A DNA stretch of 35,988 nt from Cellulomonas hominis (lineage in GTDB: Bacteria; Actinomycetota; Actinomycetes; Actinomycetales; Cellulomonadaceae). Position 1 is the first letter of the stretch; each line of letters opens with the position of its first letter. The position numbers and the translations under genes are program-made. The notes beneath the pieces were generated by a model. It was not told where the DNA came from. It searched no databases and was given only the letters and a program-made list of their open reading frames with translations. Shown one piece after another: positions 3,771-21,349 of this stretch. Location of the stretch: the NCBI RefSeq assembly GCF_005239125.1, contig NZ_SZYE01000016.1, positions 1-35,988 of the forward strand, written 5' to 3'.

Positions 3771-5273
3771 TCAGCCCGCCCCGGCACCCGCCCCGGCGCC
3801 CGCCCCCGCCCCGGCCCCCGCGGGCCTCGCCACCGCGGCCCCGTCCACCGGCGGCAGCACGCCGGTCGTCGCGAGCCGCCGGTACCAGTGCCCCGAGTCC
3901 TTCACGGTGCGGGCCATCGTCGCGTAGTCGACGTGCACGATCCCGAACCGGCGCTCGTACCCGTACGCCCACTCGAAGTTGTCGAGCAGCGACCACGCGA
4001 AGTACCCGCGGACGTCGGCCCCGGCGTCCAGCGCGGCGCCGACCGCGGCCACGTGCGCGTGCAGGTAGGCCACCCGGTCGGCGTCGTGCACGCGGCCGTC
4101 CGGCGCGACGACGTCGGGGTACGCCGCGCCGTTCTCGGTCACGTGCAGCGGCAGGCCCGGCCGGCGGCGGTGCAGGCCGACCAGCAGCTCGGTGAGCCCG
4201 GAGGGGTCGACGACCCAGCCCATCGCGGTCCGCGGGCCCGGCTGGTGGAGCCAGCGGACGCCCTCGACGAGGTTGGCCGGCGGCCGCTCGGCCCCGGACG
4301 GCGAGGCCGCCTGCACGTCGGCCTCGGCGGGCGCGCCCCCGTTCGTCGCGGACGCGTCCGCCCCGACCGTCGCCGTCGTGTAGTAGTTCACCCCGAGCGC
4401 GTCCAGCCGGGTCCGCACCAGGTCCAGGTCGCCGTCGCGCACGAACGACCAGTCGGTCAGGTGCGCCGTCTCGGCGACGACCTCCTCCGGGTAGGCGCCG
4501 TCGAGCAGCGGCCCGAGGAACACCTCGTTCGCCACCCGGTCGAGCCGCGCCTTGGCGGCCCGGTCCTCGGGCGCCGCGGAGGCGGCCCGGTTGACCTGGA
4601 GGTTCAGCGCCACGGAGACCTGCGCCGCGTCGCCCGCCGCGGCCCGCACCGCGCGGGCGCCCAGCCCGTGCGCGAGGTTGAGCGTGTGCACGGCGGCGAG
4701 CGCCCGGGCGGGGTCCTGCACGCCGGGGGCGTGCTCCCCGGAGGCGTGGCCGAGGTAGGCGGTGCACCACGGCTCGTTGAGCGTGGTCCACAGCGCCACC
4801 CGGTCGCCGAGCGCGTCCGCCACCAGGGCCGCGTAGTCGGCGAACCGCCACGCGGTGTCCCGGTGCGGCCAACCGCCGGCGTCCTCCAGCGGCTGCGGCA
4901 GGTCCCAGTGGTAGAGCGTGACGACCGGGTCGACGCCGTGCGCCAGCAGGGTGTCGGTCAGCCGGCGGTAGAAGTCCAGGCCGGCGGGGTTGGCGGGCCC
5001 GCGCCCGGTCGGCTGGACGCGCGGCCAGGCGACGGAGAACCGGTAGGCGCCCAGCCCGAGGTCGGCCATGAGGGCGACGTCGTCCGCGAACCGCCGGTAG
5101 TGGTCGGTGCCGAGGTCGCCGGTGTGCCCGCCGAGCACGGCGCCGGGGCGGCGGGAGAACGTGTCCCAGATCGACGGGCCGCGGCCGTCCGCCCCCACGG
5201 CGCCCTCCACCTGGTAGGCGGCCGTCGCGGCGCCCCAGACGAAGCCGTCCGGGAACCGGCGCGCCGCGGTCAC
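3771..5273 (-). CDS. GH1 beta-glucosidase (family 1 glycoside hydrolase)
   Basis: 500 residues, a single (beta/alpha)8 barrel of usual GH1 length. The start is GTG 5271-5273, whose GTGA overlaps the stop of the upstream beta-mannosidase gene; the protein then opens with the typical [18 protein letters not shown]. The acid/base is E167 in TLNEPW and the nucleophile is E380 in VTENG. The aglycone-site pattern [12 protein letters not shown] (about 428-439) is also present. There is no signal peptide, so it works in the cytoplasm, releasing glucose (or another equatorial beta-linked sugar) from imported oligosaccharides. It is the last gene of the transporter-glycosidase operon and is translationally coupled. 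Odd point: the protein ends in eight Ala-Gly dipeptides encoded by a GC-only tract. GH1 specificity is broad, so beta-galactosidase or beta-mannosidase side activity cannot be excluded. Confidence 0.93.
3774..3821 (-). repeat. 48-nt tract encoding (Ala-Gly)8 tail of the GH1 protein
   Basis: Sixteen codons alternate between GCN and GGN immediately before the stop codon. The DNA is all G and C apart from one base. It encodes a flexible C-terminal tail outside the catalytic barrel. Such tracts are prone to slippage, so the length may vary among strains. Confidence 0.85.
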
Positions 5274-7870
5274 CGGGCCGACCCGAGGTCCGCGCCGCCC
5301 GCGCCCACCCCCGCGCCCACGGGCGCGCCGTCCGCGAGGACCACGCCCGCGAGCGCCACCCCCCGCAGGTCGTTCGCCGACCGCAGCACGGGCGCCGCGG
5401 TCAGGTCGGCGAGGTCCAGCACGGCGTCGGTCGTCACGTGGAACGTCGCCCGCTCGCCGGCGAGCAGGGTGACCAGCGCGTCGTCGACCCGCGCGTCCGG
5501 CGCCAGCCGGTCGGCGTGCAGGGTGACGTCGGCCGCGTAGGACCGGGCGACGACCTCGACCCGGTACCCGCCCGGCTCGCGCGCGGCGGTGGCCCGCACG
5601 GCCGCGGGGTCGAGCCGCAGGTCGACGTCCTCGACGAACGCGCGCGTCGCCCGCCGGTCGCCGTCGGGTGCCGCCAGGGACGCGGCGAGCACCTCGCCCC
5701 CCGCGTCGACCGGGGTCGCGAGGTCGGCCGGGACGGGGACGACCGCCACGGACCGCGGCTCGACCGTCACGGCGAGGCCGGCGGCCGCGGCCGTCACGCC
5801 GCCGAGCGTCTCGCGGCGCACGTGCGCGGTGCCGGCCCAGGGCTCGTCGGTGTCGTTGGTGGCGACGAGCACCAGGCCGCCGTCGCGCTCGGCGAGGAAC
5901 AGGGCCCGCGGCTGCCCGGCCGCGCGCAGCGCGTACCAGAGCGGCTTCGGGCGCTCGGCGGAGTCGACGGCCGCCCAGGACGTGACCGGCCAGCAGTCGT
6001 TGAGCTGCCAGACGACCCAGCCCGCGGTGCGGGGCCACCAGGCGCGGTAGTGCTCGACGGCGTACCGGACCGCGCGGGCCTGGTTGAGCTGGGTCGCCCA
6101 GTGCCAGTCGGCGAAGTCCCGGGGCACGCCGAGGTGCGGCGCCAGGCCGCGGTCGAGCTTGCCGTTGCCGTCCTCGGCCTTCTGGTGCACGAGGAACACG
6201 GGGTCCTCCTGCGGCACGGGCGCGTCGGCGAGCGGCCCGCCGTCGACCGCGTGCACGGACTCGACGAGGGTCCGCCACGCGGGCGGTCCCTGGAAGCCGA
6301 ACTCCGAGCAGAACCGCGGGATCTCCGAGCGGTACGCCGTGTAGTCGACGCGGTTCCACACCTCCCACTGGTGGTGCGTGCCGCGGTCCGGGTCGTTGGG
6401 GTGCACGTCGGCCGGGTCGCGGCGCGGCGTGAAGGGGCTGTTGGTGGCGTACGGGCGGGTCGGGTCGAGCTCCGCCAGCACGGCCGGGAAGAGCTCCTCC
6501 GCGTACCACCGGCCCCAGGTCGCGTCGCCGAGCCGCGCCTTCCAGCCCCAGTCCTCGTGGCCCCAGACGTTCTCGTTGCCGCCGTTCCACAGGACCAGGG
6601 ACGGGTGCGGCATCAGGCGCACGACGTTCTCCCGGGCCTCCGCCTCGATCTCGGAGCGCAGCGGCTCCTCCTCCGGGTAGGCGGCGCAGGCGAGCAGGAA
6701 GTCCTGCCACACCAGCAGGCCGCGCTCGTCGCACAGCGCGTAGAAGTCGTCGGACTCGTAGATCCCGCCGCCCCACACCCGGAGCAGGTTCAGGTGCGCA
6801 CCGGCCGCCTGGTCGAGGCGCCGGGCCAGGCGCTCGCGGGTGATCCGGGTGAGCAGGTGGTCGTCGGGGATCCAGTTCGCGCCCCGCACGGCGACCGGGC
6901 GGCCGTTGACCACCAGCGTGAACCGGGCGCCGTGCTCGTCGTCGGCGGTGTCGAGCGCGACGGACCGGAAGCCGACGCGCCGGTGCCAGGTGTCCAGCGG
7001 GGCGCGGTCGTCCCCGTCGTCCGCCGCCAGCGTGACGTCCAGGTCCGCGAGCGGCTGCTCCCCGTACCCGGCGGGCCACCAGACCGGCGCGTCCGGCACC
7101 GCGAGCGCGACCGCGGCCGACGACGCCCCCGCCGGGACGGTCACCGACGCCGAGGCCCCCAGGACCGCGGCCCGCAGCGTCAGCGGTCCCGCCGGCGCGA
7201 GCCCCGAGCGCTCGACGTCCACGTGCACCGCGACCCGCCCGGTGCCGTCCGGGTCGAGGGTGACCAGCGGCCGGACCCGCGCCAGCCGGGCCACCGACCA
7301 GCGCTCGACCCGCACCGGCTTCCACAGCCCCGCGGTGCGCAGGTCCGGGCCCCAGTCCCAGCCGAACGAGCAGGCCATCTTGCGGACGAAGTTGTACGGC
7401 ACCGGGCTGTACGCCGACGGCCGGTCGCCGAGGACGTCCCGCACCTCGTCGGCGTACGCGGTGGCGGACCGCAGGTCGACGGTCAGGGCGCGCGCGGCCC
7501 CGTCCGCCAGGTCCCGCACGTCGTACCGGGACGACCGGTGCATGTTCGCGCTCGTCCCGAGCACCCGCCCGCCGAGCGCCACGGTGCCGACGGTGTCCAC
7601 GCCGTCCAGCACGAGGTCGACCCGCTCGCCCGCAGCGGCCGGCTCCAGCGTGAGCGCCCGCTCGTACCGCCAGTCGGTGCCGTGGAACCAGCGCACCGAC
7701 TCCTCGTGCGCGTCCAGGTACGGGTCGGGGATCAGGCCGGCGTCGAGCAGGTCGGTGTGCACCGAGCCGGGCACCTCCGCGGCGAGCGGGCCCGCGGCGA
7801 GGACGGCGTCGGGCACGGGTCCGGCGGTGGCGGTGACGGTCCAGCCGTCGGCGAGGGTGTGGTGCTGCAC
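5270..7870 (-). CDS. GH2 beta-mannosidase (Man2A-like)
   Basis: 866 residues, usual for exo-acting GH2 beta-mannosidases. It removes beta-1,4-mannose from the non-reducing end of manno-oligosaccharides. Layout: N-terminal jelly-roll sugar-binding domain (about 1-190, with [18 protein letters not shown]), immunoglobulin-like domain (195-300), barrel (305-620), C-terminal beta domains. The acid/base is E433 in WNGGNEN and the nucleophile is E523 in [11 protein letters not shown]. Their spacing of 90 residues equals that recalled for Cellulomonas fimi Man2A (E429/E519), supporting orthology. No signal peptide, so cytoplasmic. The GTG start (7868-7870) has GGGAG five bases upstream. Its stop overlaps the GH1 start (GTGA). 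The 61-bp gap to the upstream GH42 gene contains a tandem 10-11-bp repeat. Confidence 0.93.
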
Positions 7871-7931: not shown

Positions 7932-9968
7932 TCAGCGCTCGCGGACGACGCGCACGCCGCCCGCCGGCACGGTGGTGACGGGCCCGACCTCCGCGCCGGT
8001 GAGCAGGTCGGTCCCGGACGCGGTGGCCTTGCGGTCCGCGTCGGTGTGGTTCAGCAGGAACAGGTAGGAGGACCCGTCGCCGACGCGGCGGACCGCCTCG
8101 ACGCCGGGGTCGGCCTCGGCGGTGCGGGGCACCCCGGCCTCCTCGACGAGCCGCGCCGCGACGCGGTCGACGGTCTCGCGGGGCAGGGCCGCCCCGACGT
8201 ACCAGGCGGCCCCGCCGGCGGCAGTGCCCCGCCGGGTCACGGCCGGCCCGCCCGCCAGCGAGGACGTGGCGTACCGGACGACCGCCTCCGCGCCGTCGAG
8301 CTCGACCCGCTCGGTCCAGTCCGCGACGTCGGCGCCGTCGTCCAGCCGGACGCGCTCGCCCGCCTGGAGCGGGTAGAACTCGTCGGTCCACGCGCCGAGC
8401 ACGTCCTGCAGCGCCCCCAGCCCGGGCCGGACCCGGCCGGTCGGCTCGCAGACGCCGGACAGGTAGGTGACCAGCAGCGTCCCGCCGCGCTCCGGCACGG
8501 CGCGCAGCCGCTCCGCCTCCGCGTCGGACAGCACCTGCAGCGTCGGCACCAGCACCAGGTCGTAGCCGGCCAGGTCGGTCCCGGGCGGCACGACGTCGCA
8601 CAGCACCTGCCGCTCCCACAGCGCCCGGTGCCAGGTGCGCAGCTCGCGCCCGTACCGCAGTGCCCGGTGCGGGGTCAGCCCGTGCTGCAGGGCCCAGCCG
8701 GCGACGTCGTCGACGACCAGCGCCGCCCGGGCGGGCGCGACCACGGTGCCCTGCACCTCCGCCAGGGCCCGCAGGTCGCGTCCCAGCGCGACGACCTCCC
8801 GCCAGATCCGGGACCGGGTCCCGGAGTGCGGCAGCATCGCCGAGTGGAACTGCTCCGCGCCGGCGGTCGAGGCGCGCCACTGGAAGAACAGCGCGCCGTC
8901 GGAGCCGCGGGCGACGTGGCCGAGGGCGTTGCGGGCGATCTCGCCGGGGTCCTTCGCGCGGTTGCGCTGCTGCCAGGACGGCGCCCCGGTGGAGTGCTCC
9001 ATGAGCAGCCAGGGCCGCCCACCGGACATGCCGCGCATCCGGTCGCCGGCGAACGCGAGGTCGTGCTCGCGGTCGGGGTCGTCGACCAGCGTGTAGTGGT
9101 CGTTCGCCACGAGGTCGGTGTGCGGCGCCCAGGACGCGTAGTCGACCACCTGGGCGCCGGCCCCGACCATCATGTTCGTCGTGACGGGCGCGTCGGAGTG
9201 CCGCTGCAGCACCGCCTTCTCGGCGAGGTAGTGCGCGAGCAGGGCGTCCGAGGAGTACCGCTCGTAGTCCAGGTACAGCCCCGGGTTGGGGGCGCCGTGC
9301 TTCCCGCGCGGCGGCAGGATCTCGTCCCAGGCGCCGAACCGGTGCCCCCACTGCGCGGTGCCCCACGCCGCGTTCACGGCGTCGACGGACCCGTACCGGG
9401 CGCGCAGCCAGTCGCGGAACGCCGCGGCCGACACGTCGCAGTAGCAGCGGGCGTTGCCGCCGCCGAGCTCGTTGCTCACGTGCCACAGCCGCACCGCGGG
9501 GTGCCGGCCGTACCGTCGCGCCAGCGCCTCGACGTACCGCAGCGCGTACCGGCGGAACACCGGGCTGCTGGGGCACCAGGCCAGCCGGCCGCCCGGCGGT
9601 TGCTGGTACAGGTCGGCGTCGTACGGCAGCACCTCGGGGTGCGCGGTGTGCAGCCAGGACGGCGGGGCGGCGGTCGGCGTGGCGAGGTCGATCGCGATGC
9701 CGTGGGCGTGCAGCAGCGCGACCGCGTCGTCGAACCAGCCCCAGTCGAACGCGCCGTCGGCGGTCTCGACCAGGCCCCAGGAGAACACCCCGAGGGTCAC
9801 GAGGTTCACGCCGGCCTCGCGCATCAGGGCGACGTCCTCGTCCCAGACCTCGCGGGGCCACTGCTCGGGGTTGTAGTCCCCGCCGTAGGCGAGGCCGTCG
9901 ACCAGGTGGACCGGAGCCGGCGCGGCGGCGGGCGGCGGCGGAACGACCGCGCTGACGAACTCAGGCAC
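7932..9968 (-). CDS. GH42 beta-galactosidase
   Basis: 678 residues, the usual GH42 length, with an N-terminal barrel (about 22-400), a glutamine-amidotransferase-like trimerisation domain (about 405-615) and a C-terminal beta domain. Family hallmarks: GGDYNPEQWP near residue 29, acid/base E167 in HVSNELGG, nucleophile E324 in LLMEHSTG. It hydrolyses terminal beta-galactosides. No signal peptide, so it acts on imported oligosaccharides. The zinc-binding cysteine cluster of some GH42 enzymes is only partly kept: C132, C175 and C177 are visible but the position expected for the fourth Cys holds Ser180. The GTG start (9966-9968) lies inside the end of the upstream ATPase gene (8-nt overlap), so translation is probably coupled. 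An internal start near residue 22 has no usable codon. Confidence 0.92.
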   Translation of the reverse strand: MPEFVSAVVPPPPAAAPAPVHLVDGLAYGGDYNPEQWPREVWDEDVALMREAGVNLVTLGVFSWGLVETADGAFDWGWFDDAVALLHAHGIAIDLATPTAAPPSWLHTAHPEVLPYDADLYQQPPGGRLAWCPSSPVFRRYALRYVEALARRYGRHPAVRLWHVSNELGGGNARCYCDVSAAAFRDWLRARYGSVDAVNAAWGTAQWGHRFGAWDEILPPRGKHGAPNPGLYLDYERYSSDALLAHYLAEKAVLQRHSDAPVTTNMMVGAGAQVVDYASWAPHTDLVANDHYTLVDDPDREHDLAFAGDRMRGMSGGRPWLLMEHSTGAPSWQQRNRAKDPGEIARNALGHVARGSDGALFFQWRASTAGAEQFHSAMLPHSGTRSRIWREVVALGRDLRALAEVQGTVVAPARAALVVDDVAGWALQHGLTPHRALRYGRELRTWHRALWERQVLCDVVPPGTDLAGYDLVLVPTLQVLSDAEAERLRAVPERGGTLLVTYLSGVCEPTGRVRPGLGALQDVLGAWTDEFYPLQAGERVRLDDGADVADWTERVELDGAEAVVRYATSSLAGGPAVTRRGTAAGGAAWYVGAALPRETVDRVAARLVEEAGVPRTAEADPGVEAVRRVGDGSSYLFLLNHTDADRKATASGTDLLTGAEVGPVTTVPAGGVRVVRER

Positions 9969-10899
9969 CGGCCCGCACCCCGCCCGCGGTCGCGGCGCGC
10001 GCGGCCGCCGCCTCCGCCTCGTCGATCGGCACCCACGCGCCCAGCGTGTGGTCGTAGCAGACGGAGTTGTCGATCCCGTCGCGCGCCACGGCGGTGTCGC
10101 CCTCGCGCCCGACCCTGCCGACCCGGTCCGGGTCGGGCGCGGCCATCGCGAGCAGCTTCGTGTAGTCGTGGTGCGGGTCGAGGATCACGGCGTCCGCCGG
10201 CCCGCGCTCCACGACGCGGCCCCGGTAGAGCACCAGGATCTCGTCGGAGAAGTGCCGCGCGGTCGCCAGGTCGTGCGTGATGTAGAGGACCGCGAGGTTG
10301 TCCTCGCGCTGCAGCCGGCCGAGCAGGTTGAGCACGCCGAGCCGGATCGACACGTCGAGCATCGACACCGGCTCGTCGGCGATCAGCACCTGCGCGCCCG
10401 GGGCGAGCGCCCGGGCGATCGCGACGCGCTGCCGCTGGCCGCCGGACAGCTCGTGCGGGCGGCGCGCGGCCATGTCCTCCGCGGGGTGCAGGTTGACCCG
10501 CTCCAGCATCTCCAGCACCCGGGCGTGGGTGGACGCCGCGTCGTGGGTGCGGCGGTGGATCCGCAGCGGCCGGGCCACGTGGTGCTCGACCGAGTGGAAC
10601 GGGTTCAGGGACGCGAACGGGTCCTGGAACACCATCTGCACGTGCCGCTGGTAGACGGAGCCCATCACGGGCGTCCGGTCGTCCAGCTGCACGTCGATCC
10701 GCCCGGAGGACGGCTTCTCCATCCGGGTGAGCAGCTTCGCGATCGTCGACTTCCCGGAGCCCGACTCGCCGACCAGGGCGACGGTGCGCCGGGGCACCAG
10801 GTCGAACGACACCCGGTCGACCGCGCGCAGCGTGCTGCGGCGCAGGCCGGAGCGCAGGGCGTAGTCCTTGGTCAGGTTGGTGACGTGGACGCTGGTCAT
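9961..10899 (-). CDS. Oligopeptide/oligosaccharide ABC importer ATPase, DppF/OppF type
   Basis: 312 residues with one complete ABC domain: Walker A GESGSGKST (44-52), signature LSGGQ (151-155), Walker B VLIADEP (171-177), switch His209. The C-terminal 60 residues match the extension found in OppD/OppF-type ATPases. It pairs with the neighbouring DppD-type ATPase to drive import through the two DppB/DppC-type permeases. The start ATG (10897-10899) shares one base with the stop of the upstream ATPase gene (TGATG). The two ATPases of a transporter usually form a heterodimer at the cytoplasmic face. The operon's glycosidases argue that the cargo is a sugar oligomer and not a peptide, as for the Thermotoga family-5 systems for cellobiose and mannobiose. 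Cargo is inferred, not seen. Confidence 0.9.
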   Translation of the reverse strand: MTSVHVTNLTKDYALRSGLRRSTLRAVDRVSFDLVPRRTVALVGESGSGKSTIAKLLTRMEKPSSGRIDVQLDDRTPVMGSVYQRHVQMVFQDPFASLNPFHSVEHHVARPLRIHRRTHDAASTHARVLEMLERVNLHPAEDMAARRPHELSGGQRQRVAIARALAPGAQVLIADEPVSMLDVSIRLGVLNLLGRLQREDNLAVLYITHDLATARHFSDEILVLYRGRVVERGPADAVILDPHHDYTKLLAMAAPDPDRVGRVGREGDTAVARDGIDNSVCYDHTLGAWVPIDEAEAAAARAATAGGVRAGA

Positions 10900-11786
10900 C
10901 AGGCCTCCTCGGGGTCGACGCCGTCGCGGATGAACGCGCCGCGCTCGCCGGACAGGCTCGGGAACGACCCGAGCAGGCGGCGGGTGTAGGGGTGCGCGGG
11001 GGAGCGGTGCAGCTGCGCGGCGGTCTCCAGCTCGACGATCTCGCCGGCCAGCATCACCGCGATCCGGTCGCTGATCTCCAGCAGCAGCGGCAGGTCGTGC
11101 GTGATGAACACGACCGCGAAGTCGAGCTCGTCCCGCAGTCGGACGATCTCCCGCAGGATCTCGCGCTGCACCACCACGTCCAGGGCGGTGGTGGGCTCGT
11201 CCATGATCATGATCTGCGGCTCGAGCAGCATCGCCATGGCGATCATCACGCGCTGCCGCATGCCGCCGGACAGCTCGTGCGGGTAGGACCGCAGCCGAGC
11301 GGGGTCGACGCCGACCCGGGTCAGCACCTCGGCCGACCGCTCCCGGCGCCGCGCCCGGGACATCCGGGCGTGCGCCCGCAGGGTGTCGTCGAGCTGCGCG
11401 CCGATCGTGCGGACGGGGTTGAGCGAGTTCATCGCGCCCTGGAACACCATCGACAGCTGGGACCAGCGGAACCGGCGCAGCGGCTCGTCGCCGAGCGCGA
11501 GCAGGTCGATGTCGCCGCCGTCCCGGTCGTGGAACACCACGGAGCCGGACGCGATCCGGGCCGGCGGCTGGTGCAGCCGGTTGATCGCGTACGCCAGCGT
11601 GGTCTTGCCGCAGCCGGACTCCCCGGCGAGGCCGAGGATCTCCCCGCGGCCCAGCTCCAGGCTCGCGTCCTTGACCGCGGTGACGGGCTGCTCGACGTCG
11701 TAGACGACGGTCAGGTCGGTGACGGTGAGCACCGGGCGGCGCGCGGGCGCCGCGGCGTGCGGGACCCGGTCGGTGAGCGTGGTCAT
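10899..11786 (-). CDS. Oligopeptide/oligosaccharide ABC importer ATPase, DppD/OppD type
   Basis: 295 residues. Walker A GESGCGKTT (55-63), signature LSGGM (172-176), Walker B IMIMDEP (192-198), switch His230, and the C-terminal HRSPAHPYTRRLLGSFPSL (about 260-278) typical of OppD/DppD-family ATPases. The LSGGM variant of the signature is common in this subgroup. The start ATG (11784-11786) overlaps the stop of the upstream permease gene by one base (TGATG), which decides it against the much longer open frame that continues upstream in the shadow of the permease genes. Cytoplasmic subunit; partner of the following DppF-type ATPase. Cargo is inferred from the glycosidase context. Confidence 0.9.
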   Translation of the reverse strand: MTTLTDRVPHAAAPARRPVLTVTDLTVVYDVEQPVTAVKDASLELGRGEILGLAGESGCGKTTLAYAINRLHQPPARIASGSVVFHDRDGGDIDLLALGDEPLRRFRWSQLSMVFQGAMNSLNPVRTIGAQLDDTLRAHARMSRARRRERSAEVLTRVGVDPARLRSYPHELSGGMRQRVMIAMAMLLEPQIMIMDEPTTALDVVVQREILREIVRLRDELDFAVVFITHDLPLLLEISDRIAVMLAGEIVELETAAQLHRSPAHPYTRRLLGSFPSLSGERGAFIRDGVDPEEA

Positions 11787-12796
11787 CAGGCGGCCTTCCT
11801 GGCGACGCGGGCGGCCGCCTTCGCGCGACGGCGGGCGGTGCGGGCGTTCTTGAGCCGGGGGTTGATGATCTCGTCGATCGAGAAGTTGACCAGGGACAGG
11901 CCCATGCCGAACAGGGCGATCACGAGCCCCGGTGGGACGAACCACCACCAGGCGCCGAGCGGCAGCGCGAAGCCGTTCTGCGCGTAGAACAGCATCGTGC
12001 CGAGGGTCGAGGCGTTCGATGCGCCGAGGCCGAGGAACGACAGGCCGGCCTCGCCGAGGATCGCCGCGATCACCGCGTACACGAACTGCGAGGCGAGCAC
12101 CGGGAGCAGGTTCGGCAGGATCTCCACGCCGATGACCCGCCACGGCTTCTCGCCCGACAGCCGGGACGCGGCCACGTAGTCGCGCGACCGCACCGACAAC
12201 GTCTGCGCGCGCAGCACCCGGGCGGACGCCGCCCACGACGTCAGGGCGAGCACCACCGCGATCGTCCACAGCCCGCGGCTCTCCCGGGGCACGAAGCCCG
12301 AGATCACGATGACCAACGGCAGGCCCGGGATCACCAGGAACACGTTGGACAGCAGGGAGAACCCCTCGTCCGCCGCGCCGCCCAGGTAGGCGCCGTAGAT
12401 CCCGAAGAACGCCGACAGCAGCGTGGCGAGCACGCCGACCATGAGGCCGATCTGCAGCGAGCCGCGGGTCGCGTAGGCCAGCTGGGCGAGCACGTCCTGG
12501 CCGGTCTGCGTGGTGCCGAGCCAGTGCTCCGCCGACGGCGGGGCCAGGCCGACGTCGCTGATCGCGTCGGGGTCGCCGACCAGGTGCGGCCCGACCACGC
12601 CGAGCAGCACGACTCCGGCGATCAGCACGAGGCCCGTGGCGAGCCACGGGGTCATGGTCGGCAGCAGCATCCGCCACGCGGGGCGGGCCCGGGTCCCCGC
12701 GGGGCGGGGCTCGGGCGTGGTGGTGGTCGGGGTGGTCTCGACGGGCCCGCCGGGCCCCTCGACGGCCACCTGCACGTCCGGTCCGATGTTCGTCAT
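11786..12796 (-). CDS. ABC importer permease, DppC type
   Basis: 336 residues. A poorly conserved N-terminal tail rich in Pro and Thr (1-40) precedes the first helix (about 50-72), then a periplasm-facing loop with HWLGTTQTGQDVLAQL, typical of DppC permeases, and five more helices. The coupling (EAA-like) loop SRDYVAASRLSGEKPWRVIGVEILPN (about 204-229) contacts the ATPases. It ends in a basic cytoplasmic tail rich in Ala, Arg and Lys. Cytoplasmic membrane. ATG at 12794-12796; 12 bp separate it from the stop of the DppB-type gene. It forms a heterodimeric pore with that protein. Confidence 0.9.
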   Translation of the reverse strand: MTNIGPDVQVAVEGPGGPVETTPTTTTPEPRPAGTRARPAWRMLLPTMTPWLATGLVLIAGVVLLGVVGPHLVGDPDAISDVGLAPPSAEHWLGTTQTGQDVLAQLAYATRGSLQIGLMVGVLATLLSAFFGIYGAYLGGAADEGFSLLSNVFLVIPGLPLVIVISGFVPRESRGLWTIAVVLALTSWAASARVLRAQTLSVRSRDYVAASRLSGEKPWRVIGVEILPNLLPVLASQFVYAVIAAILGEAGLSFLGLGASNASTLGTMLFYAQNGFALPLGAWWWFVPPGLVIALFGMGLSLVNFSIDEIINPRLKNARTARRRAKAAARVARKAA

Positions 12797-12808: not shown

Positions 12809-13798
12809 TCAGCCCTTCGCGCGGGTGCGCGGGTCGATGAGGCCGTACAGCAGGTCGACGACGAGGTTCGCGCCGAGCACGGCCAGGGTGATGAACAGGA
12901 ACACGCCCTGCATGAGGGCGTAGTCGTTGTTGGTGACCGCGGCGAGCAGCCGGGACCCGATGCCGGGGTAGGAGAACACCTGCTCGGTGACGACGGACCC
13001 GGAGACGACGAAGCCGAGGGAGATCGCGAACCCGGCGACGGACGGCAGCACGGCGTTGCGCGCGGCGTAGTTCCGCATGACCTGCCCGTGCGGGAGGCCC
13101 TTGGCGCGCGCGGTGAGCACGTAGTCCTCGGACAGCGTGGACACCATCATGTTGCGCATCCCGAGCAGCCAGCCGCCGATGGAGGCGACCACGATGGTCA
13201 GCGCGGGCACGAAGCCGTACTCGATCGCCGACCCGATGAACTCCGGCGACCAGCCGGGGTCCAGCACGACGTCGTAGCCGCCCTGCGACGGGAACCAGCC
13301 GAGCACCCGGGACAGCAGGTAGACCAGCACGAGCGCGAGCCAGAAGTACGGCACGGCCGCGAGCAGCGTGGTCAGCGGCACGGCCGAGTCCAGCCAGGTG
13401 CCGGGCCGCCAGCCGACGAACGCGCCGAGCAGCACGCCGATGGTCGCGGCGAGCACCGTGGCGATGCCCACCAGCACGACGGTCCACGGCATCGAGGTCC
13501 CGATGACCTCGCTGACCGGGGTGGGGAAGTAGGTGACCGAGACGCCGAGGTCGCCGTGCAGCAGGTTGGACAGGTACGTGCCGTACTGCTGCAGCAGCGA
13601 GTCGGTGGAGTCGCCGCCCAGCAGGGCGGCGTACGCCTCGCGCGTCTCCGGGGTGACGGTCCCGCCGCGCTGCTGCAGCTTGGCCAGCAGGATGTCGACG
13701 GGGTTGCCGGGCAGGAGGCGGGGGATGAGGAAGTTGAGGGTGACGGCGGCCCACAGGGCGACCGCGTAGAAGCCGAGCTTGCGCAGGACGTAGTTCAC
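12809..13798 (-). CDS. ABC importer permease, DppB type
   Basis: 329 residues. It opens with MNYVLRKLGFYAVALWAAVT (first membrane helix) followed by FLIPRLLPGNPVD, the conserved DppB-type opening. Five further helices follow, and the coupling loop is EDYVLTARAKGLPHGQVMRNYAARNAVLP (about 233-261). The start is GTG 13796-13798, preceded at seven bases by GGAAGGG; the open frame upstream is an out-of-frame shadow of the binding-protein gene. The 95-bp gap before it holds a strong hairpin (13840-13887) that may lower expression of this and later genes relative to the binding protein. It pairs with the DppC-type permease in the cytoplasmic membrane. Confidence 0.9.
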   Translation of the reverse strand: MNYVLRKLGFYAVALWAAVTLNFLIPRLLPGNPVDILLAKLQQRGGTVTPETREAYAALLGGDSTDSLLQQYGTYLSNLLHGDLGVSVTYFPTPVSEVIGTSMPWTVVLVGIATVLAATIGVLLGAFVGWRPGTWLDSAVPLTTLLAAVPYFWLALVLVYLLSRVLGWFPSQGGYDVVLDPGWSPEFIGSAIEYGFVPALTIVVASIGGWLLGMRNMMVSTLSEDYVLTARAKGLPHGQVMRNYAARNAVLPSVAGFAISLGFVVSGSVVTEQVFSYPGIGSRLLAAVTNNDYALMQGVFLFITLAVLGANLVVDLLYGLIDPRTRAKG

Positions 13799-13839
13799 GT
13801 CGCGACCCTTCCGACGGCGGGGGAGGTCCGGGGCGGGGC

Positions 13840-13893: not shown

Positions 13894-15606
13894 TCAGCCG
13901 GCCGCCGGCTCCAGGCGCTTGAAGATCTCCGCGGCGTCGAACGCGGACCACACCGCCGGGAAGGCGTACATGTCGTCCTCGGTCGGCCAGCCGGTGAACC
14001 CGCCGACGTTCCACTCGCTCGTGGTGCCGCCGGTGAGGATCGGGATGTAGGGCATGTCCTCGACGACGGCGGCCTGGATCGTGTCGAAGTGCGGCTGGCG
14101 CGCCTCGGCGTCGTCGAGCGGCATCGTCTTGAGCGCGTCGAGCGCGGCGTCCACGTCCGGGTTCGCGTACCGGGCGTAGTTGTTGCCCGCCGCCTCGCCG
14201 ACCGGGGCGCCCGTCGCCGACGAGAAGAAGTACGTGTACAGGTAGTACGGGTCGGGCGCCGGGCCCTGCCACAGCGAGTCGATCGCGAGCTGGAAGTTGC
14301 CCTGCGTGCGCCGCTCGGTCCACTCGTTCCAGGACGACTGCGCCGTCTGCACGTCGATGCCCGCGGCCTTCGCCTGCTGGGCGATGGTCTGCACCGCGGT
14401 GATGTAGTCGGTCCAGCCGGTGACGACCTCGACCGTCACGGTGAGCCGCTCGCCGTCCTTCGCGTAGATCCCGTCCGCGCCCTTGGCCCAGCCGGCGGCC
14501 TCGAGCACCGCGGCGGCGCCCTCGGGGTCGGCCTTCTCGGGGGCGACCGGCTCCTCGACGTCGGCCGAGATCGTGGCCTCCTGCGTGGAGGTGAGCGCGA
14601 ACGTCGGCGAGATCTCCGACGCGGTCTCCTCGAACGCGAGCTGGTTGAGCTGGGTGCGGTCCATCGCGAGGTACAGCGCGTGCCGCACGGCCGGGTCGGT
14701 CTGCGGGCCGGAGCAGCCGAGCTCCACGCTGGAGCAGGTGGCGAGCACCATCTGGTTCTGCGCGGCGGTCAGGGTGTCGTAGCCGGGGAAGTTCTCGGCG
14801 ACGTTCTGGATGTCCGGCACCGGGCCGGTCTGCCAGTCGATGGTGCCGTTCGCGATGCCGTCGGCGCCCGCGGTGTTGCCGGACAGCGACAGGAACCGGA
14901 TCGTCTTCACGGCCGGCTCGCCGCCCCAGTAGTCCGGGTTCGCGGTGTACGTGAACGCCTGCGGCTTGAAGTCGCCGAGCGTGTAGGCCCCGGTGCCGAC
15001 CGGGTCCTCGATCACGTCGGCCGTCGGGTCGACGTCCGCCCACAGGTGCTCGGGCACGATCGGGACGCCGGACAGCACGTCGGGCCCCTGCACGAACGCG
15101 GGGGCGTCGAACGTGAACGTCACGTGGGTGTCGTCGGTCGCGGTCGCCGTGCCGGCGTAGCCGACGTTGTTGATCGCGGGGGTGCTCGCGAGCAGGTCGT
15201 AGGTGAACACCACGTCGTCCGCGGTGAACGGCTCGCCGTCGGTCCAGGTGACGTCGTCGCGGAGGGTGACCTCCAGCTGGGTGCCGTCGTCGTTCCAGCT
15301 GTACTCGGTGCCGAGCAGCGGGACGGGGTCGGACTCGGCGGCCTTGTTGATGAAGAACAGCTGCTCGTAGATCGCGCCCAGGCCGCCGATCCGGGACGGC
15401 GAGAACGGGTTGAAGTTGACCTGGTAGTCGCCGGACTGGCCCGTGTAGGCGACGAGCGTGGTGCCGTCGCCGGACGCGCCCGTGCTGCCGGACCCGCCGC
15501 TGTCGCCGCCGCTGCACGCGGCGAGCAGGGCGAGGGTCGCGGCGCCCGCGACGAGGGGCACGGCGCGGGCGCGGCGCCGGTGCGTGCGTGCTGACCTGAG
15601 GAACAT
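13894..15606 (-). CDS. Family 5 extracellular solute-binding lipoprotein
   Basis: 570 residues. A lipoprotein signal peptide with Arg-rich n-region and LLAAC places the lipidated Cys at 31, followed by a Gly/Ser linker. The mature part has the marks of SBP family 5 (DppA/OppA): YEQLFFINKAAESDPVPLLGTEYSW, then DVTWTDGEPFTADDVVFTYDLL (about 118-139). It is anchored to the outer face of the membrane and hands its ligand to the DppB/DppC pore. The ATG (15604-15606) has AAAGGA eight bases upstream. It is the first gene of an eight-gene operon ending in three glycosidases and is transcribed from a promoter that contains a ROK-type palindrome. The ligand is therefore probably a manno- or gluco-manno-oligosaccharide; peptides are the default family annotation but fit the context poorly. 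Confidence 0.92.
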   Translation of the reverse strand: MFLRSARTHRRRARAVPLVAGAATLALLAACSGGDSGGSGSTGASGDGTTLVAYTGQSGDYQVNFNPFSPSRIGGLGAIYEQLFFINKAAESDPVPLLGTEYSWNDDGTQLEVTLRDDVTWTDGEPFTADDVVFTYDLLASTPAINNVGYAGTATATDDTHVTFTFDAPAFVQGPDVLSGVPIVPEHLWADVDPTADVIEDPVGTGAYTLGDFKPQAFTYTANPDYWGGEPAVKTIRFLSLSGNTAGADGIANGTIDWQTGPVPDIQNVAENFPGYDTLTAAQNQMVLATCSSVELGCSGPQTDPAVRHALYLAMDRTQLNQLAFEETASEISPTFALTSTQEATISADVEEPVAPEKADPEGAAAVLEAAGWAKGADGIYAKDGERLTVTVEVVTGWTDYITAVQTIAQQAKAAGIDVQTAQSSWNEWTERRTQGNFQLAIDSLWQGPAPDPYYLYTYFFSSATGAPVGEAAGNNYARYANPDVDAALDALKTMPLDDAEARQPHFDTIQAAVVEDMPYIPILTGGTTSEWNVGGFTGWPTEDDMYAFPAVWSAFDAAEIFKRLEPAAG

Positions 15607-15679: not shown

Positions 15680-15718
15680 CATATCGTTACGTGCTTAAAT
15701 TAAGCATGTCAAGATATG
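15680..15718. promoter_or_regulatory. 39-bp near-palindromic operator between ROK gene and importer operon
   Basis: The dyad centres on base 15699. The core TGCTTAAATTAAGCA (15692-15706) is a perfect 15-bp inverted repeat around one A. Pairing continues outward to ATATC (15681-15685) and GATAT (15713-15717). In all, 16 of 19 symmetric pairs match. It is the most AT-rich spot in this part of a very GC-rich sequence. It probably binds the ROK repressor encoded just to the right. Confidence 0.8.
15684..15712 (-). promoter_or_regulatory. Promoter of the importer-glycosidase operon
   Basis: On the minus strand a consensus TTGACA (-35, plus-strand 15707-15712) is followed after exactly 17 bp by TAACGA (-10, plus-strand 15684-15689). 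The spacer (15690-15706) contains the whole 15-bp core palindrome, so a bound repressor would block RNA polymerase. Expected transcription start near 15677, leaving a leader of about 70 nt. Confidence 0.7.
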
Positions 15719-15720
15719 GT
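15715..15720 (+). promoter_or_regulatory. -10 element for leaderless ROK repressor mRNA
   Basis: TATGGT fits TANNNT and lies six bases before ATG 15727, the spacing expected when transcription starts at the A of the start codon. It lies inside the right arm of the 39-bp dyad, which suggests autoregulation. Confidence 0.5.
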
Positions 15721-15726
15721 CGGGAG

Positions 15727-16974
15727 ATGCGCGCACCCTCCCGTGCCGCGACCGGGGCGCTCGTCCTCGACCTGATCCGCACGCACGGCACGGTCAGCAG
15801 GGTCGAGCTCGCCGACCGGTCGGGCCTCACCGCGGCGACCATCACGCACGTCGTGCGGGACCTCATGGCCGAGGGCCTGGTGCACGAGGTCGGCCGCGTC
15901 ACCGGCGGCGTCGGGTCGCCGCGCCGCCTGCTGGAGCTGGACGCCGGCGCGTGGTTCGCTGTCGGCGTCCAGCTCGACCGGTGCGCCAGCAGCGTCGTGG
16001 TCACCGACTTCGCGGGGCGGCGGGTCGCCTCGACGGGCGTGCGCGGCGTGGGCCGCGGCGCCCCCGACGACACCCTGCCGGTGCTCGCCCGGCACATCGA
16101 CCTGCTGCTCGCCGGCGCCGGCATCCCCCGCGACCGGGTCCTCGGCGTCGGCCTGGTGACGCACGGGCCCCAGGACCGGGCCGCGGGCGCCGTGCTCACC
16201 GGCCAGCCGACGCCGCAGTGGCGCGACTACCCGCTCACCGGGACGCTCGCGCGGCTGCTGGGGCTGCCGGTGCTGCTCGAGAACGACGCGACCGCGGCGG
16301 CCGTGGGGGAGCAGTGGGTCGGCGCCCTCGACGTCGACACCTTCGGCGTGCTCTACATGGCGACGGGCGTCGGCGGCGGGGTGATCGCCGGGTCCGAGGT
16401 GTACCGCGGCGGCACGGCGAACCCGGTCGAGATCGGGCACGTGCCGGTCGACCCCACGGGGCCCGCCTGCGCCTGCGGCAGCCGCGGGTGCGTCGAGGCG
16501 CTCGCGGGCCCGGGCGCGGTGGTCGCCGCCGCGCTGCGCGACCCTGCGCTCGCGGGCCGGCTCGGGCTGGCCGGCGGCGAGGACGCGGTGCTGGCCGACT
16601 TCCAGCGGGTCGCGCGCGCCGCCGTGGCCGGCGACGGGGCGTCCGCGGCGCTGCTGGCGGACTCCGCGCGGCACCTCGGCACCGCGGCCGTGACGCTGAT
16701 GAACCTGTTCGACCTCGATACGGTCGTGCTGGCCGGCCCGGCCTTCGGCGTCGCGGGGCCGCTGTACGTCGCCGGGGTGCAGGAGGTGGTCGACGCGGGT
16801 GCGCTCGCGCGGCTGCTGCGGCCCGTGCGGGTGCGGCTGTCCCGGGACGTCCGGGTGTCCGCGGCGGTGGGCGGGGCGCTGGTGGTGCTCCGGTCGCCGC
16901 TGGGGCGGCCCGGCTCGAACCCCGCGGCCGCGGCGCCCGCGCCGTCGGCGACCGGCGCACCCGTACCCGCCTAG
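15727..16974 (+). CDS. ROK family transcriptional repressor (sugar-responsive)
   Basis: 415 residues from ATG 15727; an in-frame ATG at 15706 would add seven residues but overlaps the operator and has no ribosome-binding site. The N-terminal winged helix-turn-helix (about 10-70) contains VSRVELADRSGLTAATITHVV. The ROK sugar-kinase-like domain follows: ENDATAAAVGEQW (about 184-196), a glycine-rich turn MATGVGGGV, and the full zinc motif CACGSRGCVEAL (about 250-261) after EIGHVPV. The Ala/Pro-rich end is probably disordered. It is expected to bind the 39-bp dyad and release it when a sugar binds, controlling both the divergent importer operon and its own operon with the GH36 gene 38 bp downstream. 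Repressor sign is inferred from operator position. Confidence 0.9.
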   Translation: MRAPSRAATGALVLDLIRTHGTVSRVELADRSGLTAATITHVVRDLMAEGLVHEVGRVTGGVGSPRRLLELDAGAWFAVGVQLDRCASSVVVTDFAGRRVASTGVRGVGRGAPDDTLPVLARHIDLLLAGAGIPRDRVLGVGLVTHGPQDRAAGAVLTGQPTPQWRDYPLTGTLARLLGLPVLLENDATAAAVGEQWVGALDVDTFGVLYMATGVGGGVIAGSEVYRGGTANPVEIGHVPVDPTGPACACGSRGCVEALAGPGAVVAAALRDPALAGRLGLAGGEDAVLADFQRVARAAVAGDGASAALLADSARHLGTAAVTLMNLFDLDTVVLAGPAFGVAGPLYVAGVQEVVDAGALARLLRPVRVRLSRDVRVSAAVGGALVVLRSPLGRPGSNPAAAAPAPSATGAPVPA

Positions 16975-17012
16975 CCCGTCCCGACCCGATCGTCCGACTC
17001 GAAGGAGAGCCT

Positions 17013-19187
17013 GTGACCGCCACGACCCCGACCCCCGCGCCCGACGCCCCGACGTGGACCGTGCTGCGCCGCGACGGCGTGGCCGTCGTCCTGGCGCACC
17101 CCCGCGACGGCCTGCCGCAGGTGCAGCACTGGGGCGCCGACCTGGGGCCGCTGACCGCGGCGGACCTCGTCGCGCTGCGGGTCGCCGCCGACCGGCAGAC
17201 CCCGCCGGGCACCCTCGACGCGGCCGGGCACCCGTCTCTGCTGCCGCAGGAGACCGACGGCTGGCCGGGCCGGCCGGGGCTGCAGCTCGTGCGCGACGGC
17301 GTCCCGCTGAGCCCGCGGTGGTCGGCCGGGCCGCCGGAGGTGGCCCCGGACGGCCACGCGGTCGAGGTGGTCGCCCGCGACGCGGCCGCGGGGCTGGTGC
17401 TGCGCTCGCGGCTGCACCTGGAGCCCGGCGGGCTGCTCGGCGTCGCGCACCGCCTGGAGGTGGCGCCCGCCGCGGCCGCCCCCGTGGAGGTGCACGCCCT
17501 CGAGGCGGCGCTGCCGGTGCCGACCCGGGCGGACGTGCTCACGACGTTCGCCGGCCGGTGGACCCGGGAGAAGGTGCCGGCCACCGGTCCGCTGCCCCGC
17601 GGTTCGCTCGCCCGGCAGACCCGCCGCGGCCGGCCGGGCCACGACCACCCGTGGCTGCTCGCCCTGTCCGCCGCCGCCCCGCGGGACCGGGACGGCGAGG
17701 TCTGGGCGGTGCACCTGGCGTGGCCCGCGGACGCCACCTACCGCACGGACCGGCTGCCGGACCAGCCGACGCTGCTGGGCGCCGGCGAGCTGCTGCGCGC
17801 GGGCGAGGTCGTGCTCGGGCCCGGGGAGTCCTGGGCGGCGCCGACCGCGTGGTTCGCGTGGTCGGGTGCCGGGCTCGACGGCGTGACCGCGCGGTTCCAC
17901 ACCTTCCTGCGCTCCCGGCCCCAGCACCCGCGCACGCCCCGGCCGCTCGTGCTCAACACCTGGGAGGCGGTGTACTTCGACCACGACCCCGCGACCGTGC
18001 TCCGGCTCGCCGAGCGGGCCGCGCGGATCGGGGTCGAGCGGTTCGTGCTCGACGACGGCTGGTTCCTCGCGCGCCGCGACGACACCCGGGGGCTGGGCGA
18101 CTGGGTGGTCGACCGCGCCGTGTGGCCGGACGGGCTCGGGCCGCTCGCCGAGCGGGTGCACGCGCTCGGCATGCAGTTCGGGCTCTGGTTCGAGCCGGAG
18201 ATGGTCAGCCTCGACTCGGACCTCGCCCGGGCGCACCCGGACTGGCTGCTGCACGACCCCGACCGCGTCCCGGACCCCGAGGGGCTGTCGTTCCGGACCC
18301 AGTACGTGCTCGACCTCGCGCGGCCGGAGGCGCGGGCGCACGTGCTCGGGCAGGTGTCCGCCCTGGTCGCCGAGCTCGGGATCGACTTCATCAAGTGGGA
18401 CCACAACCGCGACCTGGTGGACGCCCGGCACGCGGGCCGGCCGGGCGTCGACGCGCAGACCCGGGCCGTGCTCGGGCTGATGGCCGAGCTGAGGGCGCGG
18501 CACCCGGGGCTGGAGATCGAGTCCTGCTCGTCCGGCGGCGCGCGCAGCGACCTCGGGGTCCTGGAGGTCACCGACCGGGTGTGGGCGTCCGACTCCAACG
18601 ACGCCGTCGAGCGGCAGGACATCCAGCGGTGGACCGGGCTGCTGCTGCCGCCCGAGCTCGTCGGCGCGCACGTCGGCCCGCCGACGTCGCACAGCTCGGG
18701 CCGCACCCTCGACCTGTCGTACCGGCTCGCGACGAGCCTGATGGGCTCGGCGGGGTTCGAGTGGGACGTGCTGTCCTGCTCGGACGAGGAGGTCGAGGTG
18801 CTGACGCGGTTCGCGGGCCTGTACCGGGAGCTCCGGCCGCTGATCCACACCGGCACCGCGGTGCACGCGGACGTCCGGGACCCCGCCCTGCGGGTCGTCG
18901 GGGCCGTCGCCCCGGACGGCTCCGCCGGGGTGTGGACGGTCGCGACCGTCGCCGCGCTGGAGGACGCCCGCCCGGAGCCCGTCCGGCTGCACGGGCTGCG
19001 CCCCGACGCCCGGTACCGGGTGCGGGTCCGGGACGAGATCGGGGCCGCCCGGTGGGGGTGGGTGACGCCGCCGTGGCTGGCCGCGGGCGAGGTCACGCTG
19101 CCGGGGCGGGTGCTCGCCGAGGCCGGGCTGCAGCTCCCCGCGCTGTGGCCCGCGCAGGCGCTCGTGCTGCACGCGACCGCGGTCTGA
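17013..19187 (+). CDS. GH36 alpha-galactosidase
   Basis: 724 residues, the usual length of bacterial tetrameric GH36 enzymes. It removes alpha-1,6-galactose from galactomannan or raffinose-type oligosaccharides. Layout: N-terminal beta-supersandwich (about 10-300), barrel (310-640) and C-terminal beta domain. Hallmarks: NTWEAVYF (315-322), VLDDGWF (345-351), LWFEPEMVS, nucleophile D463 in KWDHNRD, CSSGGAR (505-511), and acid/base D527 in WASDSNDA. The start is GTG 17013-17015 with GAAGGAG five bases upstream; the frame continues upstream only as a shadow of the ROK gene. No signal peptide, so cytoplasmic. It forms an operon with the ROK gene and works on cargo of the divergent importer. It is convergent with the LacI-like gene, only nine bases apart. 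Confidence 0.94.
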   Translation: MTATTPTPAPDAPTWTVLRRDGVAVVLAHPRDGLPQVQHWGADLGPLTAADLVALRVAADRQTPPGTLDAAGHPSLLPQETDGWPGRPGLQLVRDGVPLSPRWSAGPPEVAPDGHAVEVVARDAAAGLVLRSRLHLEPGGLLGVAHRLEVAPAAAAPVEVHALEAALPVPTRADVLTTFAGRWTREKVPATGPLPRGSLARQTRRGRPGHDHPWLLALSAAAPRDRDGEVWAVHLAWPADATYRTDRLPDQPTLLGAGELLRAGEVVLGPGESWAAPTAWFAWSGAGLDGVTARFHTFLRSRPQHPRTPRPLVLNTWEAVYFDHDPATVLRLAERAARIGVERFVLDDGWFLARRDDTRGLGDWVVDRAVWPDGLGPLAERVHALGMQFGLWFEPEMVSLDSDLARAHPDWLLHDPDRVPDPEGLSFRTQYVLDLARPEARAHVLGQVSALVAELGIDFIKWDHNRDLVDARHAGRPGVDAQTRAVLGLMAELRARHPGLEIESCSSGGARSDLGVLEVTDRVWASDSNDAVERQDIQRWTGLLLPPELVGAHVGPPTSHSSGRTLDLSYRLATSLMGSAGFEWDVLSCSDEEVEVLTRFAGLYRELRPLIHTGTAVHADVRDPALRVVGAVAPDGSAGVWTVATVAALEDARPEPVRLHGLRPDARYRVRVRDEIGAARWGWVTPPWLAAGEVTLPGRVLAEAGLQLPALWPAQALVLHATAV

Positions 19188-19196
19188 GCTGGTCGG

Positions 19197-20066
19197 TCAG
19201 GCGGGCGGCGGGGCCGTCGAGCCGCGCGGCACCACCCGCACCCCGGGGGTGCGGGTGGTGGCCGGCGGCCCGCCGGCCACCGCCCGCAGCAGCACCTCGG
19301 CGGTCAGGGCGCCCAGCTCGTGCACGTCGCGGCTGACGACGGACAGCGGCGGGTGCGAGATGCGGACGTTCGCCGAGTCGTCCCAGGCCAGCACCGACAG
19401 GTCCTGCGGCACGCGCACGCCGAGCCGCGCCGCCTCGCGCAGCCCGGCCAGCGGCATGAGGTCGTTGTCGTACACGATCGCCGTCGGCGGCTCGGGCAGC
19501 GCGAGCAGCTCGGCGGTGCGCAGCGCGCCGCTCGCCGCCCCGTAGTCGCCCTCCCGGTGCAGCCCGACCACCCCGGCGGCGGCCGCGGCGTCCCGGAACG
19601 CGGCGCCGCGCACCCGCGTGTGCCGGTAGCGCCCGGGCCCGGACACCCAGCCGACCCGGCGGTGGCCGAGGTCGGCGAGGAACGCGACCGCGGTCCGCAT
19701 GGCGCCGTCGTTGTCGTAGTCGACCACCCACCGGCCGTCGCCGGGCTCGCCGCCGAGCAGCACGGACGGCAGCCCGAGGTCCCGGCACGCCTGCTCGCGG
19801 GGGTCGTCGGCCACCAGGTCCGAGATCACGACCGCGTCCACCAGCCCGTCCCGCGCCCACCGGCGGTACGCCACGAGCTCGGCGTCGAGGTCCGGCACGA
19901 CGTGCACGAACACGCTCGCCCCGTGCCTGTCCAGCTCCTCCTCCATGCCCGCCAGCAGGTCCGTGTAGAAGGGCTCGAGCGCGCCGTCGTCGTCGGCCGG
20001 CAGCAGCGCCAGCCCGACCCGGACGCCGCTGCCCGGCCGCCGGTCGGGCGGCGTCGGCGTCGTCAT
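19197..20066 (-). CDS. LacI-type sugar-sensor protein lacking the DNA-binding domain
   Basis: 289 residues. The sequence begins with a short disordered tail (MTTPTPPDRRPGSG) and goes straight into the periplasmic-binding-protein-like sensor domain of LacI/GalR regulators: VRVGLALLPADDDGALEPFY, then LVDAVVISDLVADDP, GHRRVGWVSGP, and the C-terminal VLAWDDSANVRISHPPLSVVSRDVHELG. The usual N-terminal helix-turn-helix and hinge (about 60 residues) are absent. They cannot lie upstream in another frame, because the divergent ROK gene starts only 59 bp away. No signal peptide, so it is a cytoplasmic sugar sensor, not an ABC binding protein. It may be a decayed repressor or may act through a partner such as the divergent ROK protein; both are inference. 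Confidence 0.85.
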   Translation of the reverse strand: MTTPTPPDRRPGSGVRVGLALLPADDDGALEPFYTDLLAGMEEELDRHGASVFVHVVPDLDAELVAYRRWARDGLVDAVVISDLVADDPREQACRDLGLPSVLLGGEPGDGRWVVDYDNDGAMRTAVAFLADLGHRRVGWVSGPGRYRHTRVRGAAFRDAAAAAGVVGLHREGDYGAASGALRTAELLALPEPPTAIVYDNDLMPLAGLREAARLGVRVPQDLSVLAWDDSANVRISHPPLSVVSRDVHELGALTAEVLLRAVAGGPPATTRTPGVRVVPRGSTAPPPA

Positions 20067-20125: not shown

Positions 20126-21349
20126 ATGGACGGCGTCGAGGTCGGGCAGGGCGCCGGGCGGCGGGGCGGCCGCGCGCCGTCGACCACGCGCTCCCGGGTG
20201 CTCGACCTGGTCCGCACCCGCGGGCCGATCAGCCGCGTCGAGCTCGCCGAGCTCACCGGGCTGACCCAGGCGGCGATCTCGCACGCGGTGCGGGCGCTGC
20301 TCGACCAGGGGCTGCTGCGCGAGAACGGCGCCCGGGAGTGGACCGGCGGGAAGCCGCGGGTGATGCTCACGCTGGACCCGCTGGCGCGGTGCGCCGTCGG
20401 CGTGCAGCTCGGCGCGGACTGGCTGGTCGTCGTGCTCATCGACGCGCGGGGCGCGGTCGTCGCCCGCACGCGGGTGCGCGGCGCGCGCGAGGAGGACCCG
20501 GACGCCGTCGTCATCGGCATCGCGGGGGAGATCGACGTGCTGCTGCGCGCCGCCGGGATCGGCCGGGACCGCGTGGCGGGCGTGGGCCTCGCGGTCCCGG
20601 GCACCCTGGACCTCGACGCGGGCGCGATCACGGTCTCCCGGTCGCTGCACCGGTGGCAGGGCTTCCCCGTGCGCGCCGCGCTCGCCGAGGCCGTCGGCGT
20701 GCCCGTGGTGCTGGACAACGACGCCACCGCCGCGGCCGTCGGGGAGTACTGGGCCGGGCGCACCGCCGGTTCCGTCGCGCACTGCACGCTCTACATGGGC
20801 GCCGGCATCGGCGCCGGCGTGGTGGTCGGGGGCACCGTGCACCGCGGCGCCAGCGGCAACGCCGGCCCGCTCGGCCGGATGCACCTGCACCGCAGCGCGC
20901 ACGACCCCGGCCCGACCCTCGAGGAGCTCGCCGCCCCGCACGCCGTCGCCCGGCGGGCGCGCGAGGCGGTCGCCGCGGGGCGGGCGACGACCGTGCGGCT
21001 CAGCCCGGACGGCGACCCCATCACGGACTTCGGGGCGGTGGCCACGGCCGCGGTGCAGGGCGACCCCCTCGCGCTCGAGCTCGTCGAGGACTCCGCGGAG
21101 TACCTGGCGGACGCGGCGGTGACCGCCGCGAACCTGCTGGACGTGGACTCCGTGGTGCTCGCCGGCCCGGCGTTCAGCACCGCCGGGTCGCTGTACGCGC
21201 AGGTGGTCGAGCGGCGGCTGCGGGCGGAGCTGCACGCGGCCGACCGGCACGGGGTGCGGGTCGCGCTCGCGGCGCACGTCGCGGACGCCGCCGCCGTGGG
21301 CGCCGCGGCGCTGGTGCTGCAGGAGGACCTGGCGCCGCGGCGCGGCTGA
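20126..21349 (+). CDS. ROK family protein with helix-turn-helix, zinc motif absent
   Basis: 407 residues from ATG 20126; in-frame ATG 20114 would add four. The winged helix-turn-helix (about 20-80) contains ISRVELAELTGLTQAAISHAV, nearly the same as in the first ROK repressor. The kinase-like domain keeps VLDNDATAAAVGEYW and the glycine-rich MGAGIGAGVVVGG. The signature that should follow is different: where ROK proteins carry EIGH and CxCGxxGCxE, this one has NAGPLGRMHLHRSAHDPGP with no Cys. It therefore lacks the structural zinc site and the His that helps contact the sugar. It is probably a DNA-binding regulator with an altered or missing sugar response. It diverges from the LacI-like sensor gene. 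Confidence 0.88.
   Translation: MDGVEVGQGAGRRGGRAPSTTRSRVLDLVRTRGPISRVELAELTGLTQAAISHAVRALLDQGLLRENGAREWTGGKPRVMLTLDPLARCAVGVQLGADWLVVVLIDARGAVVARTRVRGAREEDPDAVVIGIAGEIDVLLRAAGIGRDRVAGVGLAVPGTLDLDAGAITVSRSLHRWQGFPVRAALAEAVGVPVVLDNDATAAAVGEYWAGRTAGSVAHCTLYMGAGIGAGVVVGGTVHRGASGNAGPLGRMHLHRSAHDPGPTLEELAAPHAVARRAREAVAAGRATTVRLSPDGDPITDFGAVATAAVQGDPLALELVEDSAEYLADAAVTAANLLDVDSVVLAGPAFSTAGSLYAQVVERRLRAELHAADRHGVRVALAAHVADAAAVGAAALVLQEDLAPRRG

Follow-up and report, generated by a model that had tools for sequence, protein, structure and literature searches.

A 39-bp dyad in the DNA stretch analysed here (the window; 35,988 nucleotides of Cellulomonas hominis contig NZ_SZYE01000016.1) contains a 15-bp core that is probably the operator at which the neighbouring ROK regulator acts; it would lie in the spacer of two interlocked divergent promoters and allow repression in both directions. 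A single-site bidirectional switch operated by ROK had been claimed in a first-pass annotation of this DNA, and it is supported by the observations described below, namely the sequence of the site, its conservation, its register relative to the ROK gene, the order of the surrounding genes and the co-variation of the core with the helix-turn-helix (HTH) of the regulator.

Genes flanking the site

The ROK gene, which encodes the proposed repressor, occupies 15727–16974 on the plus strand, and its product has a ROK domain (PF00480; E-value 5.3e-37, 128.4 bits vs. a cut-off of 22.9) and an N-terminal winged HTH at residues 12–53 (Pfam HTH_24, 1.7e-05; MarR, 2e-05). Inspection of its translation by eye finds EIGH and H..CACGSRGC, which we take to be zinc and sugar-binding motifs. 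A GH36 α-galactosidase-type gene follows on the same strand (16971–19187, start approximate, stop TGA; Pfam Melibiase 1.2e-109). The minus-strand operon on the other side of the site begins with a solute-binding lipoprotein gene (13894–15606; SBP_bac_5, 1.5e-67) and continues with two ABC permease genes (12809–13816, start approximate, and 11786–12796), ABC ATPase genes of the OppD (10899–11786) and OppF/DppF (9961–10899) types, and genes for GH42 (7932–9968), beta-mannosidase-like GH2 (5270–7870) and GH1 (3771–5261, start approximate) enzymes. This importer belongs to the Opp/Dpp type and has a family-5 solute-binding protein, and the combination of GH36, GH2, GH42 and GH1 would fit plant oligosaccharides that carry galactose and mannose.

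Two further genes lie beyond GH36. One encodes a LacI-type sensor of 289 amino acids (Peripla_BP_3; 19197–20066, minus strand) in which Pfam reports no HTH, and the other a second ROK protein, ROK2 (20126–21349, plus strand), which is 44% identical to the first, is conserved in the cluster and by eye is without the Cys-rich zinc motif. GH36, the LacI-type gene and ROK2 are present in all eight loci from named genomes that extend that far, Kineosporia included, with the LacI-type gene between the other two.

The dyad and its expected frequency

The dyad (15680–15718, no strand) pairs 16 of 19 positions about a centre at 15699, and its core, TGCTTAAATTAAGCA (15692–15706, no strand), is perfect in all 7 pairs; these are the same dyad and core, at the same positions, that had been described before. 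The conserved heart of the core is TAAATT (15696–15701). Chance expectations were estimated from 30 first-order simulations of the window. It contains 16 perfect odd dyads of 7 pairs vs. a simulated mean of 12.1, and the perfect 15-bp core is by itself nothing special. Dyads with at least 16 of 19 pairs number three in the window (centres 15699, 19245 and 19269) vs. an expected 0.27; all three are odd, no even dyad of this quality is found in the window, and the second and third lie within coding sequence, at its 3′ end. On its own statistics the dyad is only mildly unusual. Since the core does not exceed expectation, the case was rested on conservation instead. A genome search with the core, proposed in the first-pass annotation, found it, with up to three mismatches allowed, a single time in the window and a single time in the whole 4.2-Mb genome of this strain, and a wider regulon in this genome was therefore rejected.

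Conservation of the site

We searched 221 family genomes, of which 23 have an orthologous ROK (E ≤ 1e-100). Upstream of the orthologue, 21 of the 23 have the site in an unchanged register; one of the others (G214, locus L040) has a degenerate site beside the orthologue, and no site was found upstream of the orthologue in the other (G213, L039). Three Kineosporia also carry the site with the same gene order, so the site is conserved upstream of orthologous operons, and a lack of such conservation would have counted against the proposal. Of thirteen loci taken from named genomes, the three from Kineosporia provide additional sites; eight duplicate genus contigs, and the remaining two are distant. 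The 25 sites considered below leave out L039 (no site), L041–L047 and L050 (repeats) and L052 and L053 (23% identity), and include L040, which lacks GTCAA and was anchored by hand on AGTAAAG; the counts are non-independent, in that eight loci are near-identical. Gene order was compared by alignment in 11 named loci: all 11 share one order of the solute-binding protein, the two permeases and the two ATPases, GH42 is present in 9 and GH2 in 10 (one contig stops before GH2).

Alignment of the 22 distinct 60-bp sites displays three conserved blocks separated by variable linkers: a left box ATTCTTGCC (ATCGTTACG in the window), a core TAAATT(T/A)A and a right box GTCAAGATA. The outer arms of the dyad coincide with the two boxes and look promoter-like rather than operator-like, and the operator proper would be the ~8–14 bp that are conserved between them. 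The pattern TAAATTWAGNNNGTCAA, allowing one mismatch, is found in 18 of the 221 genomes, of which 16 are among the 23 with an orthologue and 2 among the 198 without (the match counted for G196 is on the other strand of the same site), and the reversed control gave no match in the same 221. Genomes with an orthologue that lack the pattern are G072, G136, G143, G144, G211 and G214, which have other cores, and G213, which has no site. The pattern matches in G083 and G091 were not counted as support, since the ROK that adjoins them is only ~29% identical. A search of the open-licence literature turned up no description of this operator in Cellulomonas.

Two candidate promoters in the same DNA

Read on the minus strand, the right box supplies the transporter operon with a candidate −35, TTGACA (15707–15712), that matches the consensus at 6 of 6 positions and whose GTCAA (as read in the right box) is conserved. 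The left box supplies the −10. The first-pass annotation had paired TTGACA with TAACGA (15684–15689) across a 17-bp gap (15690–15706) that contains the core; the −35 and the location of the core in the spacer stand, but AACGAT (15683–15688) with 18-bp spacing corresponds better to the conservation and is preferred, because its A2 and T6 (columns −25 and −21) are each conserved in 21 of the 22 distinct sites. AACGAT matches TATAAT at three positions and TAACGA matches it at two, and relatives have AAGAAT in place of AACGAT. The conserved blocks thus read TTGACN, 18 bp, AANNAT on this strand, a combination that occurs at this single place in the strain's own genome and so is not a common promoter type there.

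The plus strand of the same DNA reads TTRC.., 17 bp, CAAGAT, a second candidate promoter that would serve ROK. Its −10, CAAGAT (15710–15715), overlaps the opposite −35, and its −35, TTACGT (15687–15692), overlaps the opposite −10; the latter is weak here (2/6), and several relatives have TTGCCN at this position. Within CAAGAT, alignment column +3 is A in 22 of 22 distinct sites, and column +7, a key place, is T in 15 and lacks it in 7. The ROK −10 had previously been taken to be TATGGT (15715–15720, plus strand), which would leave ROK leaderless here and whose final T (column +12) is shared by only 5 of the 22 distinct sites. The ROK ATG at 15727 follows CAAGAT by 11 nt and TATGGT by 6 nt, and with this 11-nt gap TATGGT stays an alternative, although it is rivalled by the conserved columns of CAAGAT, which may be the −10 instead. 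With either candidate −10 the putative ROK promoter overlaps the dyad. In L011 and L014 the ROK start is fixed by an in-frame stop at 7 nt past CAAGAT, and in L012 the ATG is 6 nt past it, spacings that would be as for a leaderless gene, while L015 and L038 have a ribosome site directly after the right box and a ROK start 20-odd nt after that box. Overall, the right box and the ROK start are separated by 11 to ~25 nt or less in 13 of the 25 loci (the window included), so little that the ROK promoter should overlap the site; in about half of the loci the start is 30–120 nt distant, and there the ROK promoter could lie elsewhere. Overlap of the operator with both promoters fits sequence and conservation on the operon side, and on the ROK side fits the start position in 13 of 25 loci.

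Variation of the core and a ROK paralogue

The cores vary among relatives: CTTAAATTAAG in the strain's own clade (centre −9), CTAAATTTAG (centre −8.5), TTAATTAA and others, so that relatives rebuild the dyad with different letters at two centres. All 18 loci with a TAAATT core have ATIT in the recognition helix of ROK, and 6 of the 7 loci with other cores do not (Fisher 4e-5, for loci that share ancestry). Those same six (L015, L034, L036, L037, L038 and L040) are the 6 of the 22 distinct sites with no good dyad at the expected centre.

A ROK paralogue, ~47% identical, keeps the outer frame ATTCTT-N19-GTCAAC with the core AAGTGAACAAAGTTA or similar. We inspected the neighbourhood at 16 paralogue loci, and the frame is present in 12 and absent from L020, L025, L027 and L030. 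The gene facing the paralogue is by eye family-1 binding protein-like, and the solute-binding protein of the window gave no match to it at 1e-8. In this paralogue group the right box reads GTCAACG and offers no CAAGAT-like −10, and ~110 nt separate it from the start of ROK. Among 81 genus genomes ATTCTT-N19-GTCAAC occurs in 33, at 37 places, one of which (G008) has an unrelated core, and its reversed control matches once (G038). The version ending in GTCAAG occurs in 4 of the 81, every one at the ROK locus, and was accordingly rejected as a generic promoter. G028 and G048 each have two ATTCTT-N19-GTCAAC frames, ~5.6 kb apart in one neighbourhood and with different cores.

The paralogue comparison sets apart an outer frame that stays constant and a core that changes. 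Because the core follows the recognition helix and the paralogue keeps the frame around another core, the best interpretation makes the core the operator for ROK and assigns the boxes chiefly to promoters. With less confidence, at somewhat under even chances, we suggest that the ATTCTT-N19-GTCAA frame travels with the ROKs of Cellulomonas and its relatives as two fully interlocked promoters around one spacer, into which different cores are exchanged as the recognition helix changes, and which face different transporter genes.

The proposed switch and its alternatives

The proposed steps are binding, promoter use, repression, response to an effector and polymerase competition. The right box would act as the −35 (TTGAC) of the transporter-glycosidase operon and, on the opposite strand, as the −10 (CAAGAT) of ROK-GH36; the left box would be the −10 of the operon and, on the opposite strand, the −35 of ROK. 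With a ROK dimer bound to the core, polymerase would be blocked both ways and the operon and ROK itself repressed, until an imported sugar or its breakdown product released the dimer. As polymerase could be seated in one orientation only, the stronger operon promoter (TTGACA, 6/6) should then limit ROK synthesis after release. Most likely one protein switches off both sides via this site.

Could the operator overlap the transporter promoter alone, with ROK using another promoter and its autoregulation incidental or absent? The long ROK leaders of L010, L032–L037, L048, L049 and L051 would allow this, as would the distant start and missing −10 of the paralogue, but the starts in 13 of 25 loci are too near the right box to leave room for a separate promoter downstream, the in-frame stops pin the close starts in L011 and L014, and we consider this arrangement unlikely. 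About equally unlikely is that the outer boxes are part of an extended ROK recognition sequence and not promoter elements. They are pseudo-symmetric about the core and common to two ROK lineages that face different transporters, and the uniqueness of TTGACN-18-AANNAT in the strain's own genome gives room for boxes within a ROK-specific signal. However, some promoter is required for the operon, the right box has the sequence of a consensus −35, A2 and T6 of a −10 are retained in the left box at a legal spacing, and a different recognition helix goes with a different core but not with different boxes.

It is more doubtful still that another regulator, such as ROK2 or the LacI-type protein, binds the operator and the adjacent ROK acts elsewhere: both genes are in the same cluster and conserved with it, but the core type tracks the helix of the adjacent ROK, and the LacI-type protein is the one in which Pfam finds no HTH (above). 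A chance dyad in an AT-rich intergenic region would agree with the roughly expected frequency of perfect 15-bp dyads, but it is contradicted by conservation across genera, by the distribution of the pattern and the conserved blocks, and by the rebuilding of the dyad at centres −9 and −8.5 with different letters, and can be given very little weight.

Relation to known systems

This kind of switch is already familiar, and it is this well-conserved example that is new; the interlocked frame with exchangeable cores may be the novel part, though we hold this only tentatively. In Bifidobacterium it is common for a ROK regulator to control a local regulon (PMC4746261). The protein described here, with its HTH, ROK domain and local regulon and a gene that adjoins genes of sugar import and hydrolysis, is like those and like the autoregulated ROK sugar repressors Mlc, NagC and XylR; it differs from them in its operator sequence and in the proposed position of that operator in a shared spacer. 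A study of E. coli bidirectional promoters (PMC12825309) describes one shared −10, starts typically 10, 18 or 23 bp apart, and repression by AcrR in both directions. The present site resembles these in its pseudo-symmetric DNA, which polymerase may bind either way, and in its one proposed repressor. It is unlike them in that either −10 would overlap the −35 of the other direction, with start sites that would be ~46–51 bp apart. In the promoters of Warman et al. one −10 is used in both directions, and the candidate −10s here are separate (15683–15688 vs. 15710–15715 or 15715–15720). The Pc/Pr promoters of pLS20 likewise are overlapping divergent core promoters of a regulator and its target, but they depend on several sites, with two operators and looping of the DNA (PMC4207663), and here there is one site.

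If the frame is read correctly, repressor and polymerase orientation would compete for one 30-bp stretch, and point mutations could separate polymerase competition at the interlocked promoters from one-site repression. The pair of regulator and operator is compact, and natural variants of core and recognition helix could inform ROK specificity in high-G+C bacteria.

The two other long dyads of the window (19226–19288) pair 16 of 19 positions about 19245 and 18 of 19 about 19269; they are within the 3′ end of the LacI-type gene, close to where the convergent GH36 gene stops, and are perhaps a terminator.
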